Origin: a virus
DNA: 64,000 bases
IMG/VR virus record: IMGVR_UViG_3300032236_001478
Location: 17,624 to 81,623 of that record
Direction: 5' to 3' (one strand)
Shown here: positions 1,740 to 9,344 of the stretch, one piece after another
Numbering within the stretch: the first letter of the stretch is position 1
Layout: each line of letters begins with the position of its first letter
Translations under genes and position numbers: made by a program
The notes under the pieces: generated by a model
The model's database searches: none
What the model was told of the DNA's origin: nothing
Seen by the model: only the letters and a program-made list of their open reading frames with translations

Positions 1740-1747
1740 TATTTATA
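1740..1747 (+). promoter_or_regulatory. Late-promoter-like TATTTATA box before portal
   Basis: Exact TATTTATA, with 6 nt between the box and the portal ATG at 1754. It is one of a family of same-orientation copies before structural genes. Promoter function is inferred. Confidence 0.55.
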
Positions 1748-1753
1748 TAGAAT

Positions 1754-3601
1754 ATGGCACAAAATCCTACTGTCTTTCAGAAACTAACAAGAATGTTCGG
1801 TTTTCCGGGCCAAACCCCAAAACAGGATACACCTTCGTTTAATTTCAGTAAAGATGAAATATTAAAAACAGATAGTAGAGAAGATTATGAAAAAGCAATG
1901 TTGCAAGCTCAACAGAGTCAATACATTGCTGACAAATGGACAAAATTAGATCAATCTCTCTACAACCAATCGGTTTATTACGAACCTAATAGACTTGCAG
2001 CATACTATGACTATGAATCAATGGAATTTACTCCAGAGGTTTCAGCAGCGTTAGATATCTATGCGGAAGAATCAACAACAATGTCAGAGAAAGGTGAGAT
2101 ATTAACTATCTATTCTGATTCTGATAGAGTTAAAAGTATATTACATGATTTATTTCATACTAAAATGGATATCAATACGAACTTACAAATGTGGGCTCGT
2201 GGTATGTCAAAGTATGGCGATAACTTTGTTTATCTTAAAATAGATCCAGAAAAAGGTATTGTTGGTGTTCAACAATTACCGAATATTGAAATAGAAAGAA
2301 TTGAAGGTGCAGCATCTAAGACACCAAATCAAAAAGATATTAAAGTACCAACAAGAGAATTAAGATTCCAATGGAAGAATAAAGATTTGGAATTTCAAGC
2401 TTGGGAAGTTGCTCACTTTAGATTATTAGGTGATGATAGAAAATTACCTTATGGTACTTCAATGTTAGATAAAATTAGACGTATTTGGAAACAATTATTA
2501 TTGGCTGAAGATGCGATGTTAATTTATAGAACATCTAGAGCACCTGAAAGACGTGTATTTAAGGTTTTCGTTGGTAATATGGATGATAAAGATATTGATC
2601 CATACGTACAACGTGTTGCTAATAAATTTAAGCGTCAACCAGTTTCTGATCCTCGTAACGGCCAAGTGGATATGAGATATAACCAAATGGCAGTAGATCA
2701 GGATTTCTTTATTCCAGTTCGTGACCCAGGGCAACAATCTCCGATTGAAACATTACCTGGAGCACAGAATTTAGGTGAGATTGCCGACATTGAATATATC
2801 CAAAAGAAAATGTTAGCTGCTCTTCGTATTCCAAAAGCATTTTTAGGTTTCGAGGAAGTTGTTGGTGATGGTAAGAATTTAGCATTAATGGATATACGTT
2901 TTGCTAGAACAATTAATAAAATCCAAAAATCTTTAATACAAGAATTAAATAAAGTTGCGTTAATACATCTATTCTTATTAGGAATGGAAGATGATTACAC
3001 AAACTTCCAATTATCTTTAACAAACCCATCTGCACAATCTGATTTATTAAGAATTGAGCAATGGAAAGAAAAGGTAACGTTATATAAAGATGCAACATCA
3101 GATCAATCACAAGTTGGTATTTTACCAGTATCACATACATGGGCTAAAAAGAATATCTTAGGATTTAGTGATAGTGAAGTATTACTTGATTTACAACAAC
3201 AACGTTTAGAAAGAGCTATTGGATTTGAGTTAACAAACACACAAAATATTATTAAGCGTTCTGGTGTATTTGATGATGTTGATTCTAAATATGGTATACC
3301 TGAAGATGAAAGAGAAGCATTAGAAAAATCAGGACAATTAGGTGGAGAAGCTCCAGGTGGTGGTGAAGGCGGTGCTTTAGGCGGCGCAGAATTAGGTGGT
3401 GCTCCTGCTGGAGGCGCACCAGAAGGTGGTGGTGGCGAAGCACCATTAAGTGAAAATTTCTTCGTTAAATCAAAAAGATCTAAAATATTATCAATGTTAG
3501 ACGAAACATCTGCTGAAGATAACATATTATTCGATATGGAACGTGCACAACGTAATATTTATGAAATAGAAAATAAAATAAAAGACATATTAAACGACTA
3601 A
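1754..3601 (+). CDS. 20: Portal vertex protein (T4 gp20-like)
   Basis: Forms the dodecameric portal of the capsid, through which DNA enters and to which the neck attaches. The gp20 signature is seen in the N-terminal half (YYDYESMEFTPEVSAALDIYAEE and ADIEYIQKKM LAALRIPKAFLGFEE segments). At 615 aa it is longer than T4 gp20 (about 520 aa); the excess is largely a Gly/Ala/Glu-rich low-complexity linker at about residues 529-566, followed by a charged helical tail. It sits between the terminase and a possible core protein gene, as in T4. The leader is A/T-rich with no Shine-Dalgarno sequence. The Gly-rich linker is unusual for a portal and may be a flexible C-terminal arm. Identification is firm. 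Confidence 0.93.
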   Translation: MAQNPTVFQKLTRMFGFPGQTPKQDTPSFNFSKDEILKTDSREDYEKAMLQAQQSQYIADKWTKLDQSLYNQSVYYEPNRLAAYYDYESMEFTPEVSAALDIYAEESTTMSEKGEILTIYSDSDRVKSILHDLFHTKMDINTNLQMWARGMSKYGDNFVYLKIDPEKGIVGVQQLPNIEIERIEGAASKTPNQKDIKVPTRELRFQWKNKDLEFQAWEVAHFRLLGDDRKLPYGTSMLDKIRRIWKQLLLAEDAMLIYRTSRAPERRVFKVFVGNMDDKDIDPYVQRVANKFKRQPVSDPRNGQVDMRYNQMAVDQDFFIPVRDPGQQSPIETLPGAQNLGEIADIEYIQKKMLAALRIPKAFLGFEEVVGDGKNLALMDIRFARTINKIQKSLIQELNKVALIHLFLLGMEDDYTNFQLSLTNPSAQSDLLRIEQWKEKVTLYKDATSDQSQVGILPVSHTWAKKNILGFSDSEVLLDLQQQRLERAIGFELTNTQNIIKRSGVFDDVDSKYGIPEDEREALEKSGQLGGEAPGGGEGGALGGAELGGAPAGGAPEGGGGEAPLSENFFVKSKRSKILSMLDETSAEDNILFDMERAQRNIYEIENKIKDILND

Positions 3602-3603
3602 CA

Positions 3604-4341
3604 ATGAATAAATTTGGTGTAGTAAAATCTAAATTGTTAACCAAACTAACTGAATCTTACGCAAAACAAAACAAAGCAGAGATTAAAGATATATTAACAA
3701 CAATAAAGGAAAATAAAGATTTTAAGGAAATGTATTTGTTTTACGAAGAAATCGAAAACAAATATATTGAAGATAATGAAATTGCAAAATTATATGTTGA
3801 GGGATTAAGCACTTATTTTGGTCAATCAATTAGTAACTTAAATATGTTTTGTGAATCATTAGAAAGTAAATTAGTTGATATAGAAATTACAACTAATGAA
3901 ATATATGAATCATTAGATATATTATGTGAAAAAGATTCATTATCAAATATTGAAAAAAAGGTTATTGCAAAAAAGAAATTAATCGAGCACTTAACAACTA
4001 AAAAAGAAATTAAAGAATCAAAAGAAACTACTTTAGTACCAAATGAAACCCTCCTTAATGCGATATTGGCTAACAACTTTAATGTACTCTACAATCAAAC
4101 ATTATCTGAATCAGAAAAAGAAGAATTGAAAAATATATTATCAATTTCTCATGATGATTTAGTTACTAAAAGTAATGAATTAGCAGAATCGGTTATTAAT
4201 CAAATATCATCACTTTTAAGTGAATCAAATGATACTGATTTATCTAAGAAATTAAATGCTGTGAAAAACGAGGTTACTCAAATGAGTCCATCGCGATACA
4301 ATTATTACAGATTAACAGAATTAAAGAACGGACTTAATTAA
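3604..4341 (+). CDS. Hypothetical protein in prohead-core position
   Basis: 245-aa charged, Lys/Glu/Asn-rich, probably helical protein with no motif I recognise. The ATG follows the portal stop by two bases, so it is co-transcribed with the portal. In T4 the small prohead core genes 67 and 68 lie in this place between portal and protease, so a core or scaffold role is a positional guess only. Its last codons lie inside a palindrome shared with the convergent bS21 gene, so both proteins end in the same five residues (KNGLN). No membrane segment or signal peptide is visible. Confidence 0.75.
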   Translation: MNKFGVVKSKLLTKLTESYAKQNKAEIKDILTTIKENKDFKEMYLFYEEIENKYIEDNEIAKLYVEGLSTYFGQSISNLNMFCESLESKLVDIEITTNEIYESLDILCEKDSLSNIEKKVIAKKKLIEHLTTKKEIKESKETTLVPNETLLNAILANNFNVLYNQTLSESEKEELKNILSISHDDLVTKSNELAESVINQISSLLSESNDTDLSKKLNAVKNEVTQMSPSRYNYYRLTELKNGLN

Positions 4342-4353
4342 GTCCGTTTTTTA
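4323..4353. terminator. Palindromic terminator shared by convergent genes
   Basis: Perfect 22-bp palindrome at 4327-4348 (half-site AACGGACTTAA). It is followed on the + side by a run of six T (4347-4352) and on the - side by a weaker T-rich stretch. It contains the stop codons of both the 245-aa protein gene (+) and the bS21 gene (-), and probably terminates both transcripts. Confidence 0.75.
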
Positions 4354-4525
4354 TTTGTTGTACGTAGATAGCTTTCAATTTTTCTGTTCTTTTTATTACA
4401 GATGGTTTTGTGAAAGTTTGTCTATCTCTCAATTTTTGGATTTGCTTTGTTTTCTGAACTTTATTTTTATAAGTTCTTAAAGCACTTTCGATTGTTTTTT
4501 CTTTTGTTACGTCGATTATAATCAT
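4334..4525 (-). CDS. rpsU: Ribosomal protein bS21, phage-encoded
   Basis: 63-aa basic protein with the full bS21 layout: N-terminal strand MIIIDV, then a long helix (ESALRTYKNKVQKT), a basic turn (LRDRQTFTKPSV) and a C-terminal helix (KRTEKLKAIYVQQ). The FxKPSVxxR segment and the Tyr at residue 54 look like the Bacteroidota form rather than the E. coli form. bS21 sits on the 30S platform next to the 3' end of 16S rRNA. In Flavobacteriia it helps hide the anti-Shine-Dalgarno sequence, so a phage copy could bias translation. I start it at the ATG at 4525, where family members begin; an in-frame upstream ATG at 4543 would add six non-family residues. It lies antisense among head genes, its 3' end overlaps the convergent gene by 8 nt, and no Shine-Dalgarno is seen before it. 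Confidence 0.88.
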   Translation of the reverse strand: MIIIDVTKEKTIESALRTYKNKVQKTKQIQKLRDRQTFTKPSVIKRTEKLKAIYVQQIKNGLN

Positions 4526-4542
4526 ATGAAATAAGTATATCA

Positions 4543-4550
4543 CAAATATA
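4543..4550 (-). promoter_or_regulatory. Bacteroidota-like -7 box upstream of bS21
   Basis: On the - strand this reads TATATTTG, an exact match to the Bacteroidota -7 consensus TAnnTTTG, ending 17 nt before the bS21 ATG. No clear -33 TTG is seen at the expected distance, so the assignment is weak. Confidence 0.35.
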
Positions 4551-4628
4551 TTAATTATTTTTGGAATTATAAGTTTTTTTTGTTATTTTTCATTATACAC
4601 CATAAAAAATGTTAATGACAAATGAATA

Positions 4629-5054
4629 ATGAAAATTGGTAAGTATATCCCATTGGGATCGTACAACGAAGTAAAAATCGGTTATGGCACCGTAGATCAT
4701 AAGAACTTAAAGACCATTTATCTTAAATTAAATTCCTGGGTTCAACCAGATAATGAAACCGAAGATTTCGATTCTTTAATACAAAAAACAAGAAGGAAAA
4801 TTAAAGAAATGGTGTATAATCTTAATTCACCATATTTCAAGAAACAATGTATTGTTGATTTAGATATTAGAACAAAAGGCATTAAGCTTGATAAACGTTC
4901 TTTTATGAATCTAGAAATAACATTATATGTTGAGAATTTCTTTGATATTAAAACATCTGATACAAAAAAATTAGTTAAAGATATCTTATTGCAAACAATA
5001 GACACAACTTTAATTGATAAAAAGCTATTCAATTTCCACAAAAACAAGAAATAA
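4629..5054 (+). CDS. Hypothetical protein before prohead protease
   Basis: 141-aa protein of alternating strand-like and basic helical segments (for example KTRRKIKEMVYNL and a VDLDIRT strand near residues 77-83). I do not recognise the family. It sits within the head gene run, after the bS21 gene and before the protease; the protease has its own TATTTATA box, so the two may be separately transcribed. No TATTTATA box or Shine-Dalgarno is visible ahead of this gene. A head-assembly role would be positional inference only. Confidence 0.7.
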   Translation: MKIGKYIPLGSYNEVKIGYGTVDHKNLKTIYLKLNSWVQPDNETEDFDSLIQKTRRKIKEMVYNLNSPYFKKQCIVDLDIRTKGIKLDKRSFMNLEITLYVENFFDIKTSDTKKLVKDILLQTIDTTLIDKKLFNFHKNKK

Positions 5055-5068
5055 TGCTGATATCATAG

Positions 5069-5076
5069 TATTTATA
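5069..5076 (+). promoter_or_regulatory. Late-promoter-like TATTTATA box before protease
   Basis: Exact TATTTATA, 16 nt before the protease ATG at 5093, in the 38-bp gap after the upstream gene. Function inferred from the recurring motif. Confidence 0.55.
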
Positions 5077-5092
5077 GAGATAAATTCTATAA

Positions 5093-5782
5093 ATGAAGAT
5101 ATTAGGACCAAAAGAATCCGGACACGGAATTTTGATTGAATACGACGCAGGACACGTTTCACCTGACGAAAACAAAAAAATATTACAAGAAGCTATGGAA
5201 TTAGATTTTTCTAAAGATCTAATTCTATATGCTGTTTTGCAAAAATACGACACTCCAAATAAGAACGGTAGAATCTACCCAAAACCTATTCTTTACAGAG
5301 AAAACGAAAAATATCAATCACTAATCAAAAAAGGTAGTGCATTGAATGAATTAAACCACCCATCTTCCTCACTTATCGATTTAGACAGAGTTTCACACTC
5401 AATTCTTGAAACATGGTGGGATGGTAAAATGTTAATGGGAAAAATCAAATTATTTACATCTCCAGGTTGGAAGAAAATGGGTATAGTATCCACTAAAGGG
5501 GATCAAGCAGCTATGTTATTAATGAACGGTGCAACATTAGGTATTTCATCTCGTGGTGTTGGTTCATTGAAACAAGTTAAAGGTGAGAACATAGTACAAG
5601 ATGATTATGAACTTGTATGTTTTGATTTAGTGTCATCACCATCAACTCCAGGTGCTTATGTATTTAAAGATCCATCCGAAAGAGATCAATTCCAAGAAGA
5701 GGTTGCAGAACGTCAAGCGCCTCAAGTTGATGACCGAATGAAAAAATTAATGGGTCGTCTTGATAGTTTTTTAGGTAAATAA
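5093..5782 (+). CDS. 21: Prohead core protease (T4 gp21-like, S77 family)
   Basis: Serine protease that matures the prohead by cleaving scaffold and capsid proteins, mostly after L/I-x-E sites. The catalytic His is seen in ELNHP (His89) and the Ser in the LGISSRG loop (about Ser152/153), with the conserved FDLVSSPSTPGA segment at about 177-188. Length 229 aa is close to T4 gp21 (212 aa). It lies immediately before the scaffold and capsid genes, its presumed substrates. The capsid protein contains a plausible I-N-E cleavage site at residues 58-60. Identification is firm. Confidence 0.92.
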   Translation: MKILGPKESGHGILIEYDAGHVSPDENKKILQEAMELDFSKDLILYAVLQKYDTPNKNGRIYPKPILYRENEKYQSLIKKGSALNELNHPSSSLIDLDRVSHSILETWWDGKMLMGKIKLFTSPGWKKMGIVSTKGDQAAMLLMNGATLGISSRGVGSLKQVKGENIVQDDYELVCFDLVSSPSTPGAYVFKDPSERDQFQEEVAERQAPQVDDRMKKLMGRLDSFLGK

Positions 5783-5835: not shown

Positions 5836-5843
5836 TATTTATA
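5836..5843 (+). promoter_or_regulatory. Late-promoter-like TATTTATA box before scaffold gene
   Basis: Exact TATTTATA, 27 nt before the scaffold ATG at 5871. Function inferred from the recurring motif. Confidence 0.5.
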
Positions 5844-5870: not shown

Positions 5871-7196
5871 ATGAGCGAAAAAAACATTTTAGAACAAGCA
5901 CTTCTTCAAATTAATACATTAGAAGAAGCTGTAAAGCAAAACGCAAAAGGTATACTGGCTTCAACTATGAAGGAAGAACTTAAAGACTTGCTTAAAGAAT
6001 CATTGGAAGAAGAGGAAGAGACTCATCCTATGGATGAAGCAACTCCTGAAGAAGAGGAAGAAAAAGATATGTCAGGTGACGACGACGCATCTTCTGAAGA
6101 AGAAGATACTGAGTTAGATACTGATGATGACACAGACCTCGATAACGCAGACGAACCAACTGGTGAGTTTGGATCAGAAGAAGATGCTGATAGCGACGTT
6201 GAAGACGGCGAATATCCTGCAGATTCTGAAATGGACACAGATGCTGATACTGATTCAGATATGGGTCTTGATGCAAACGACGATGTTGATAGTGACGACG
6301 ATGTAATGGATATGACAGGTGCTTCTGACGAAGAAGTTATTAGAGTATTCAAGAAAATGAAACCAGAAGATGGTATCGTTGTTAAAAAAGACGGTAATAC
6401 AGTTGAGTTCCAAGATGGCGACAACGACTACGTTATCAAATTAGATGAAAATGAAGAATCACATGATGAGACTTTATATGAAATCGATTTAGACGAAGAG
6501 GAAGAAGAAGAAACTGAAGAAGAAGTTCATGAAGAAAAACACCCTGGTGTTAAAGGTCATGGTCCTAAAAAAGTAAGTTTCGAGCCAGCTAAGAAAGGTT
6601 TCGACGAGAAAAAATCTCACGTTAACCCTCTTAAAAACACTCACAAACCAAAGAAATTTGAGTTCTCTGAGGAAGAAGAAGGTACTGAAGAAAAAATCGA
6701 AGCAACTGAAGCTGCAAGAACAAAATCAAATCCACACGGTGATAAAAACGGTATGGATAGAGCAGGTATAAAATCTAAAAAGATGTATAAAGCCGGTTCA
6801 TCAATCAACGAAGAAGTTGAAACTTTGAAAAAACAAAATGCTGAGTATAAAAAAGCTTTAGTATTGTTTAAGGATAAGTTAAACGAAGTTGCTGTGTTCA
6901 ATGCAAACTTAGCTTACGCTACACGTCTATTTACTGAAAATTCAACAACAAAAACGGAGAAACTTAATATATTAAAGAGATTTGATACAGTTTCTTCTTT
7001 ACAAGAATCAAAAAGCTTGTTTAATACAATACAATCTGAATTAAGCACAAAAACTACAACAGTTGCTGAATCAGTTGCAGAAAAAATCTCTAGCACACCA
7101 TCAACATCATCTTCTACTGAGGTATTATCAGAAGCTAAGGCTTATGAAAATCCACAATTCAGCAGAATGAAAGATTTGATGAAAAAATTAAAATAA
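5871..7196 (+). CDS. 22: Prohead scaffold/core protein (T4 gp22-like)
   Basis: Internal scaffold around which the capsid assembles, later digested by the gp21 protease. It is 441 aa. Residues about 46-146 are almost entirely Asp/Glu/Ser/Thr, with a second acidic block near 200-220. A basic segment follows, then a helical C-terminal half with a conserved-looking NEVAVFNANLAYATRLF segment (about 345-360), typical of gp22-like proteins. It lies exactly between protease and capsid genes as in T4. The acidic block is long compared with T4 gp22 (269 aa) and produces large antisense reading frames that are not genes. Assignment rests on position, acidity and the C-terminal segment. Confidence 0.82.
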   Translation: MSEKNILEQALLQINTLEEAVKQNAKGILASTMKEELKDLLKESLEEEEETHPMDEATPEEEEEKDMSGDDDASSEEEDTELDTDDDTDLDNADEPTGEFGSEEDADSDVEDGEYPADSEMDTDADTDSDMGLDANDDVDSDDDVMDMTGASDEEVIRVFKKMKPEDGIVVKKDGNTVEFQDGDNDYVIKLDENEESHDETLYEIDLDEEEEEETEEEVHEEKHPGVKGHGPKKVSFEPAKKGFDEKKSHVNPLKNTHKPKKFEFSEEEEGTEEKIEATEAARTKSNPHGDKNGMDRAGIKSKKMYKAGSSINEEVETLKKQNAEYKKALVLFKDKLNEVAVFNANLAYATRLFTENSTTKTEKLNILKRFDTVSSLQESKSLFNTIQSELSTKTTTVAESVAEKISSTPSTSSSTEVLSEAKAYENPQFSRMKDLMKKLK

Positions 7197-7223: not shown

Positions 7224-8969
7224 ATGGGAGCATTATTAGAATCAGGTATGGTTGGTAACATCGGTCTTAAGCACCTTAGAGTTATCAAAGAAGATACCAT
7301 CAAAAAATGGGACGAATTAGGCTTTTTAGAAGGTTTAGACGGTCACCAAAAAGATAACATCGCGCAATTATATGAAAACCAAGCGTCTTACTTAATCAAC
7401 GAAGCAGCAGTAGCTGATGCGTCTGGTTCATTCGAGACTGTGGTATTCCCTATCATTCGTCGTGTGTTCTCTAAATTATTAGCTAACGACATCGTGTCTG
7501 TACAAGCTATGAACTTACCAATTGGTAAATTATTCTACTTCATTCCTAAGATTCAGGAAAGAAACGCTGGGGCTCACTACCATCCTTATGGTTACCCATC
7601 AAACTCTACTGATCCTAATGAAGGATACACTGGAGGTAACTTATATGACCGTTTCTATGAAACTGGTACTATGACAACTGGTGCTGATGCTGACGTAAAT
7701 TCAGGTTTATTTGACTACTCAAAAGGTCAATATTCTGCAGTTACTTTATCAGCAGTTTCAGCTGTTACTTTCTCAGCTGGTGTTGTTTCTGGTATTGCTG
7801 ATTCAGCTTTAACTGGTACATCAACTAACGCATCATTAGTTTTCAAATTTACTGGTTTCACTAAAGATGGTGAAGGTAAATTAATCGGGCCTAATGGTAA
7901 CGCAATGGATACTGAAGAATTCTTAGCTTCTGCAGTTGTAACTGTAGGTGGTACTGCTAGAAACTTCAATATCGTTACACAAAAATATGGTAAAGGTATC
8001 GTAGAATACGGTCAAAAAGTATCTACAACTAACTACCCTCAAGGTAACTACTACCAAGATACAGTTGACCAAGAAGGTTCAATGTATATCCAAGTAGATT
8101 TACAAAACTATAGTGCAACTTCAGGTTTCTCTAACATTACTTTAGCTAACAGCAATGTTGCAGGTACTGTTTCTTTAACTTACAGAGTGTATGACACTTT
8201 AGAATTTGAAGATCAAATTGGTGAGGTATCTTTTGATTTACAATCAGTAACAGTTTCTGTAACTGAAAGAAAATTAAGAGCTACATGGTCTCCAGAATTA
8301 GCTCAAGACGTTAGTGCATTCCACAACATCGATGCTGAAGCTGAATTAACAGCTTTATTATCTGAGCAAATCGCTGCAGAAGTTGACCGTGAAATTTTAC
8401 GTGACTTACGTAAAGGTGCTGCATGGACAGCTAAATGGGATTACAATGGTTGGAAGTACGGTGGTGCTAGTGGTGCAACTTTACAAGGTTACACTCAAAA
8501 AGACTGGAACCAAACTTTGGTTACTAAGATCAACCAAATCTCAGCTCAAATCCACAAAACTACGTTAAGAGGTGGTGCTAACTGGATCGTTGTTTCTTCA
8601 GAAGTTTCTGCAGTATTCGATGATTTAGAGTATTTCCACGTATCTAACGCAGAACCAGAGCAAGATCAATATAACATGGGTATTGAAAAAATAGGTTCAG
8701 TAGCTGGTCGTTACCAAGTTTACCGTGATCCTTATTTCCCAGCTAACAAAATCTTGATAGGCCACAAAGGTAAATCATTATTAGATGCTGGTTATATCTA
8801 CGCACCATATGTGCCATTACAATTAACTCCAACAATGTACAATCCATTCTCAATGACTCCAATCAAAGGTATCATGACTCGTTACGCGAAGAAAATGGTA
8901 AACAACCGTTACTTTGGTGTTATCACTGTAAGTGGTATCCAAGTGTTCGATATGAATACATTAAGATAA
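7224..8969 (+). CDS. 23: Major capsid protein (T4 gp23-like)
   Basis: Shell protein of the head. Family features seen: an N-terminal propeptide region ending in LINE|AAVADA (possible gp21 cleavage after Glu60), then FETVVFPIIRRVF and VQAMNLPIGKLFYF, which correspond to gp23's conserved region. The C-terminus has the conserved ending with ITVSGIQVFDMNTLR. Length 581 aa versus 521 aa in T4; extra residues fall in a Ser/Thr/Ala-rich insertion at about 165-290. The gene is 28 nt after the scaffold gene and is followed by a strong terminator. The leader ends TTCAAAA-ATG with no Shine-Dalgarno. Confidence 0.95.
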   Translation: MGALLESGMVGNIGLKHLRVIKEDTIKKWDELGFLEGLDGHQKDNIAQLYENQASYLINEAAVADASGSFETVVFPIIRRVFSKLLANDIVSVQAMNLPIGKLFYFIPKIQERNAGAHYHPYGYPSNSTDPNEGYTGGNLYDRFYETGTMTTGADADVNSGLFDYSKGQYSAVTLSAVSAVTFSAGVVSGIADSALTGTSTNASLVFKFTGFTKDGEGKLIGPNGNAMDTEEFLASAVVTVGGTARNFNIVTQKYGKGIVEYGQKVSTTNYPQGNYYQDTVDQEGSMYIQVDLQNYSATSGFSNITLANSNVAGTVSLTYRVYDTLEFEDQIGEVSFDLQSVTVSVTERKLRATWSPELAQDVSAFHNIDAEAELTALLSEQIAAEVDREILRDLRKGAAWTAKWDYNGWKYGGASGATLQGYTQKDWNQTLVTKINQISAQIHKTTLRGGANWIVVSSEVSAVFDDLEYFHVSNAEPEQDQYNMGIEKIGSVAGRYQVYRDPYFPANKILIGHKGKSLLDAGYIYAPYVPLQLTPTMYNPFSMTPIKGIMTRYAKKMVNNRYFGVITVSGIQVFDMNTLR

Positions 8970-9047: not shown

Positions 9048-9344
9048 ATGGAATACGAAAAGCTTAGATTAGACGTTTTGCAGAAGCTTATTGACGAAAG
9101 AGGTATAACTTGTAAGAACAAGAAAGAAGAGATAATTAAGTACCTTAAAATGGACGATGAGGGTAAGTATATGTATGATATTACTTACGAAAGAACTCAA
9201 GGAGGTTACTTTGTTGGTATTGACATAAAAGATCACCAACACTTAATACAAATGAGTAAATTTATTGAGAAAGGGGAGGCTAGGCGATTAAATCGTTATG
9301 AAAATAATCGTATAATGTATTTTTCTAGTGTAAAATTAATGTAA
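9048..9344 (+). CDS. Small protein with SAP-like N-terminal motif
   Basis: 98 aa. Residues about 5-34 (LRLDVLQKLIDERGI then KKEEIIKYLK) have the spacing of a SAP helix-extended loop-helix, a putative DNA-binding motif. The C-terminal half is unassigned. It has its own position after the capsid terminator. A near-match to the late box (TATTTTTA at 9026-9033) lies 14 nt ahead of the ATG. Its stop directly abuts that of the convergent gene. Could bind DNA during packaging or late expression, but this is inference. Confidence 0.7.
   Translation: MEYEKLRLDVLQKLIDERGITCKNKKEEIIKYLKMDDEGKYMYDITYERTQGGYFVGIDIKDHQHLIQMSKFIEKGEARRLNRYENNRIMYFSSVKLM

Follow-up and report, generated by a model that had tools for sequence, protein, structure and literature searches.

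Virus-encoded and Cellular bS21 Proteins

The small subunit protein bS21 is the commonest of the ribosomal proteins encoded by viruses. Why phages should carry it is a sharper question in the Bacteroidota, because there bS21 hides the anti-Shine-Dalgarno (anti-SD) sequence, by way of which it also regulates its own production in some hosts. In Flavobacterium johnsoniae the bS21 gene, rpsU, is autoregulated via an extended SD that is read by ribosomes lacking bS21 (McNutt et al., 2023, PMC9976891); such ribosomes favor the SD-bearing rpsU message and perform worse on SD-less mRNAs, and the same authors speculate that autoregulation of rpsU could give the host some defense against phage bS21 (PMC9976891).

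Among phages, Chen et al. (2022, PMC9723584) describe 47 Bacteroidetes phage genomes with a reverse-strand bS21 gene in the same block as that analyzed here, note an aromatic residue at position 54 and divergence around residues 21-28, present the C-terminal half of bS21 as anchored against the 16S 3′ tail, and report transcription of phage bS21 with structural genes together with a proposal that the protein is substituted into host ribosomes. Since the arrangement, Tyr54 and the substitution hypothesis are published there (PMC9723584), the central claim on phage bS21 is already known. A pelagiphage bS21 has been found to enter Escherichia coli 70S ribosomes, which were ∼5% active in vitro (Mizuno et al., 2019, PMC6375957). 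What is new here is that phage bS21 genes throughout the family lack the signal on which feedback in some Flavobacterium hosts depends and that, as judged from folding and conservation, the end of the bS21 gene appears to double as a terminator-like element common to the convergent neighbor.

The Head-Gene Block and its Spread

The window (the whole stretch of DNA analyzed, 64 kb) is part of an 81.6-kb IMG/VR virus record, which is a fragment and not a complete genome. The genes around bS21 are as follows.

3-1697, + strand: large terminase subunit (TerL), beginning upstream of the window; PHROG match
1754-3601, + strand: portal protein; PHROG match
3604-4341, + strand: convergent neighbor of bS21, a 245-aa orphan protein with the C-terminus ...ELKNGLN; adjoins phage bS21 in the relatives examined
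4334-4525, − strand: bS21 coding sequence, 63 aa, stop codon at 4334-4336; Pfam, NCBIfam, PHROG and PDB matches
4629-5054, + strand: divergent neighbor of bS21, a 141-aa orphan protein; adjoins phage bS21 in the relatives examined
5093-5782, + strand: prohead (head maturation) protease; PHROG match
5871-7196, + strand: 441-aa protein at the scaffold position, placed by position only (no match in the PHROG search)
7224-8969, + strand: major head protein; PHROG match

The head block is T4-like, with bS21 antisense between the portal and prohead protease genes; TerL, portal, protease and major head protein all lie on the + strand, as implied by a preliminary description that had placed bS21 antisense inside a head-gene cluster. 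A tail sheath and T4-type baseplate domains are present in the window, consistent with a myovirus, and no tRNA genes were found within its 64 kb. The 245-aa and 141-aa orphans gave no reliable match to a known family in a PHROG search that included distant members; by positional likeness only, they occupy what we take to be the place of T4 gp67/gp68. One of the two may be the co-expressed bS21_CN of Chen et al. (PMC9723584). In relatives the divergent 141-aa gene is preceded by a conserved element, which reads ACACCATAA on the + strand and lies at 4596-4606 in the window.

A search of 80 portal relatives recovered bS21 in 66; in the remaining 14 the contig stops no more than 700 bases from the portal gene, short of the bS21 position. 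The order 245-aa orphan, antisense bS21, 141-aa orphan and protease is kept in marine lineages (portal identity 58-70%, TerL ∼61%), which extends the range of the gene to marine phages at that TerL distance. One marine lineage (L248-L262, L304) has the same antisense arrangement but a gap of 32-33 nt to the convergent gene, and its bS21 ends in KDSEI and carries KKS in place of KPS. Flavobacterium phage immuto (portal ∼36% identity) contains the block without bS21.

Identity and Conservation of the Phage Protein

The bS21 ORF is exact at 4334-4525 on the − strand, running from an ATG start to a TAA stop and encoding the 63-aa protein MIIIDVTKEKTIESALRTYKNKVQKTKQIQKLRDRQTFTKPSVIKRTEKLKAIYVQQIKNGLN. 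In the HMM comparison that the preliminary description had proposed, the protein exceeds both family cut-offs, scoring 46.3 bits against PF01165 (E 3.6e-12; curated cut-off 27) and 34.1 bits against TIGR00030 of NCBIfam (cut-off 28.95). It is also matched by PHROG 21469, ‘ribosomal protein S21’ (E 1e-6), and the nearest solved chains in a PDB search are 9i5v (E 6e-12) and F. johnsoniae bS21, 7jil (E 2e-11). The nearest cellular bS21s all belong to Bacteroidota, at identities of 58% or less, and the designation as a complete 63-aa bS21 of Bacteroidota type is borne out. An AlphaFold model (pLDDT 90) has two helices, at residues 12-35 and 41-59. A Foldseek comparison of the model with the PDB gave a single weak match (E 0.68) to the 57-residue chain 7qv1_b of a Bacillus subtilis disome entry, a chain named S21 in the PDB search, and says little because bS21 is so small and extended.

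When 100 distinct phage bS21s were compared with 138 distinct cellular ones, an aromatic residue was found at aligned position 54 in every protein of both groups, five of the phage proteins requiring a shifted alignment because of a 2-residue N-terminal deletion. The window protein has Tyr54, as had been noted from its sequence, and this residue is among 15 positions conserved in both groups. The 13 positions that differ most all fall within residues 5-30; from host to phage the changes include E8K, R14S/T, R21N/Q/S, F23V, D/E24Q, G27K, K/R30Q and a Q at residue 28. This divergence is almost fixed among phages and overlaps the positions given by Chen et al. (PMC9723584). The alignments indicate that the C-terminal half, which would bind the 16S tail, is kept and that the N-terminal half, expected to lie near the mRNA, is rewritten. 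Phage bS21 is under purifying selection, with a median dN/dS of ∼0.10 (51 comparisons, dS being near saturation); a chance ORF at 4334-4525 is ruled out by the family score, the conservation and dN/dS.

Some Flavobacteriales genomes carry two or three rpsU copies (L373-L374, L356 and L360, and L376-L377; genomes G080, G073 and G096). One copy in G096, L377, shares the V23/Q28 signature of the phage proteins and could have come from a phage.

Shine-Dalgarno Sequences and Feedback Control

SD strength was measured as the pairing energy between the 16S tail and the 25 leader bases nearest the start codon, −13 kcal/mol or below being counted as a strong SD. The window bS21 leader pairs at −5.1 kcal/mol, i.e., it has no meaningful SD, in agreement with the preliminary description. 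The whole phage family behaves likewise: across 118 distinct phage bS21 loci the median is −1.2 and the minimum −9.7 kcal/mol, so that none of the 118 leaders has a strong SD, which fits the earlier suggestion that the phage copy may escape feedback. The companion statement, that some flavobacterial rpsU genes have an SD used for such control, agrees with PMC9976891 and with the counts obtained here, a strong SD being present in 28 of 80 Bacteroidota rpsU genes whose products most resemble the phage protein (sampled best scores first) and in 16 of 70 sampled Flavobacteriales rpsU copies; Flavobacterium-type rpsU genes pair at about −19 to −27 kcal/mol. The Flavobacteriales frequency is lower than the 80% of rpsU genes with an SD given in PMC9976891, the energy method being different and the cellular sample non-random (best scores first, then hand-picked, with many streamlined genomes).

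The 118 phage and 70 cellular leaders differ with p 4e-12 (Mann-Whitney; the sequences are not independent). The contrast between phage and host is real but host-dependent; a universal one is ruled out by the 54 of 70 Flavobacteriales rpsU copies that are without a strong SD, and for the same reason exemption from feedback may be irrelevant in the host of this particular phage. Where the loop operates, the absence of SDs throughout the phage family leads to a simple prediction, namely that the phage copy is immune to feedback and the host copy shut down.

Over the 79 called genes of the phage the median SD pairing is −2.3 kcal/mol, and none is at or below −9 kcal/mol, which rules out an SD-switching scheme for phage genes. 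The further proposal of the preliminary description, that bS21 could retune host ribosomes toward phage messages lacking SDs, is weak, since the messages of Bacteroidota hosts are likewise without SDs (PMC6847099, PMC9976891). SD-lessness therefore cannot separate phage from host messages, and only host rpsU would be disfavored.

Promoter-like Boxes and Leader Length

Two promoter-like boxes precede the bS21 gene. The boxes described here are sequence matches in a genome of 69% A+T.

4543-4550, − strand: TATATTTG, host-type (sigma-ABfr) −7 promoter box with its T at −25 before the ATG; sequence match only
4531-4537, − strand: TACTTAT, a near match to the phage's own TATTTATA box; putative function

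In about half of 118 phage bS21 leaders a −7 box of host type (TAHHTTTG) begins 24-27 nt upstream of the ATG. As the sigma-ABfr −7 box lies 4-5 nt from the start site (PMC6847099), this position predicts a phage bS21 leader of 12-13 nt, too short for an extended SD; the F. johnsoniae rpsU leader is 25 nt long (PMC9976891). TA[ACT]TTAT, a looser form of TATTTATA, occurs within −20 to −5 in 88 of the 118 leaders (in shuffled A+T-rich leaders it is found somewhere in 70 nt 28% of the time), and a box of one type or the other is present in 108.

The TATTTATA box, which is the reverse complement of the T4 late box TATAAATA, is enriched about 14-fold before genes of this record, being found at window positions 1740-1747, 5069-5076 and 5836-5843 and upstream of other genes. 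In relatives it is conserved before the portal (74/77), protease (59/66) and 441-aa (47/51) genes and was found before the major head gene in none of 50. Its varying distance to the ATG and its absence before the major head gene are as expected of a promoter, and it looks like a phage promoter box; host-type and phage-type transcription may both serve bS21. At the portal gene TATTTATA is only 3-6 nt before the ATG, which hints at leaderless or near-leaderless late messages.

As a general promoter of the phage, TAnnTTTG is ruled out, since it precedes 5 of the 79 called genes against 3.4 expected. Among the block genes tested, the host-type box is common, besides bS21, only before a small gene that follows the major head gene (28/32 relatives); before the window's own copy of that gene (9048-9344) the TAnnTTTG box is absent.

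A Hairpin Shared by Convergent Genes

The bS21 gene and the 245-aa gene converge with an 8-nt overlap at 4334-4341, TTAATTAA, that includes both stop codons and forms the center of a palindrome, AACGGACTTAATTAAGTCCGTT.

4322-4353, both directions: palindromic hairpin, terminator-like in either direction, within which both convergent genes end, stop codons included; identified by folding and conservation

The hairpin folds with z about −6 on both strands, and its two orientations rank as the best terminator-like sites within the first 20 kb, although the run of T following bS21 is interrupted in the window. The stem covaries, being preserved in 99.6% of cells across 25 distinct relatives, with 12 cells changed on both sides (0/500 shuffles). 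Because the shared hairpin holds both stops, bS21 and its convergent partner both end in NGL plus a residue or so. At all 95 assessable NGL-type phage loci the convergent partner ends in GL, and the overlap is 8 or 4 nt. The C-terminal Leu codon is CTT in 82 of 95 compared with 36 of 386 at other Leu codons; for 14 of the 96 NGL-type loci searched, the stop was not found to be spanned by the longest stem. The 22 loci in which bS21 does not end in NGL are of other types, several of them retaining ELKNGL in the partner only. The conserved C-terminus of phage bS21 would appear to be at least partly a DNA-level consequence, and the hairpin is a caution against reading it purely as ribosome biology. 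Some Flavobacterium host bS21s end in DGLES, so that an ancestral similarity at the protein level is also possible.

Possible Roles of the Phage Protein

The gene probably encodes a working bS21, adapted to the phage, that takes the place of the host protein or supplements it in the 30S subunits of a Bacteroidota host. The residues common to host bS21s are retained, including the aromatic residue 54 that would stack on the 16S 3′ tail, and residues 5-30 are consistently remodeled. bS21 is a single gene to which promoter-like boxes and a terminator-like hairpin of its own belong, with no SD and with a predicted leader too short for an extended one. Once in the host 30S, phage bS21 would, together with bS18 and bS6, keep the anti-SD tail sequestered, and bS21-replete ribosomes would thereby stay available for SD-less phage messages in the late burst. 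In hosts whose rpsU needs an extended SD and bS21-lacking ribosomes, the phage copy would be exempt and its product would keep the host copy repressed, favoring one-way replacement. A one-way takeover of ribosomes through this feedback asymmetry, in which the SD-less phage gene ignores the loop and its product fills the bS21-lacking 30S subunits that translate host rpsU, so that host bS21 falls and phage bS21 replaces it, is advanced tentatively and seems unlikely; if true, the homeostatic loop of the host would become a switch, without a protease directed against host bS21. Given the ∼5% activity of ribosomes containing the pelagiphage protein (PMC6375957), phage bS21 could inhibit instead of help.

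Somewhat unlikely, in our estimation, is the hypothesis of Chen et al. that substituted ribosomes are biased toward phage over host messages by the remodeled N-terminal face, which lies close to the path of the mRNA (PMC9723584). The concentration of nearly fixed divergence at residues 5-30 would suit such selectivity, as would the co-expression of bS21 with structural genes reported in the same source. However, no phage-specific leader feature common to all late genes was found that bS21 might read, TATTTATA being at varying distances from the ATG and absent before the major head gene, and the divergence may instead reflect release from host constraints.

Substitution as a means of replacing or supplementing host bS21 also fits better than a shut-off role, in which phage bS21 would poison host ribosomes for host messages during takeover. 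This is improbable: the pelagiphage protein did cut E. coli in vitro translation to ∼5% (PMC6375957) but in a foreign host, and in the data of Chen et al. bS21 is expressed with structural genes (PMC9723584). At that late stage the phage needs the same ribosomes. Least probable of all is that bS21, as a small basic protein able to bind nucleic acids, serves in head assembly or the virion, which would explain its fixed place among head genes, locked between two orphan genes at the presumed T4 gp67/gp68 place, because strong purifying selection on ribosome-facing residues including aromatic 54 is a better fit to the ribosome, and the antisense position, promoter-like boxes and terminator-like hairpin argue against an operon-like head function. 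Possible virion packaging is mentioned by Chen et al. (PMC9723584).

Comparison with Known Systems

The freshwater Bacteroidetes myophages of clades a-e (Chen et al., PMC9723584) likewise have bS21 on the reverse strand between hypothetical genes in a TerL-portal-protease-MCP block, and share a Bacteroidetes-type bS21, the aromatic residue 54, overlapping divergent N-terminal positions and a low GC content (31%). Their complete genomes are 293-331 kb with 5-25 tRNAs, whereas the record analyzed here covers 81.6 kb of an incomplete genome, and tRNA genes are absent from the 64-kb window. They are reported to lose the proximity of bS21 to TerL below ∼70% similarity, whereas here it extends to marine relatives at ∼61% TerL identity. 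Those marine relatives, the SD survey, the promoter-like boxes and the shared palindromic terminator were not found in the available text of that study (PMC9723584).

Cellular bS21 of F. johnsoniae (PMC9976891; 7jil) is of the same family and length, shares Tyr54 and the C-terminal half, and is 44% identical to the window protein, but the N-terminal half is rewritten in the phage. Its gene is autoregulated, with an extended SD in a 25-nt leader, whereas the phage gene has no SD and a predicted leader without room for one. The bS21 of pelagiphage HTVC008M (PMC6375957) is also encoded by an aquatic myovirus; it is nearest to that of its alphaproteobacterial host and enters E. coli ribosomes, whereas entry into ribosomes is a prediction for the Bacteroidota type. 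In Microcystis phage Mel-JY01 (PP395634) rpsU is also located inside a related head block (portal ∼39% identical), but on the same strand as the head genes, between protease and MCP, and with a clearly different bS21 sequence, and it is probably a separate acquisition.
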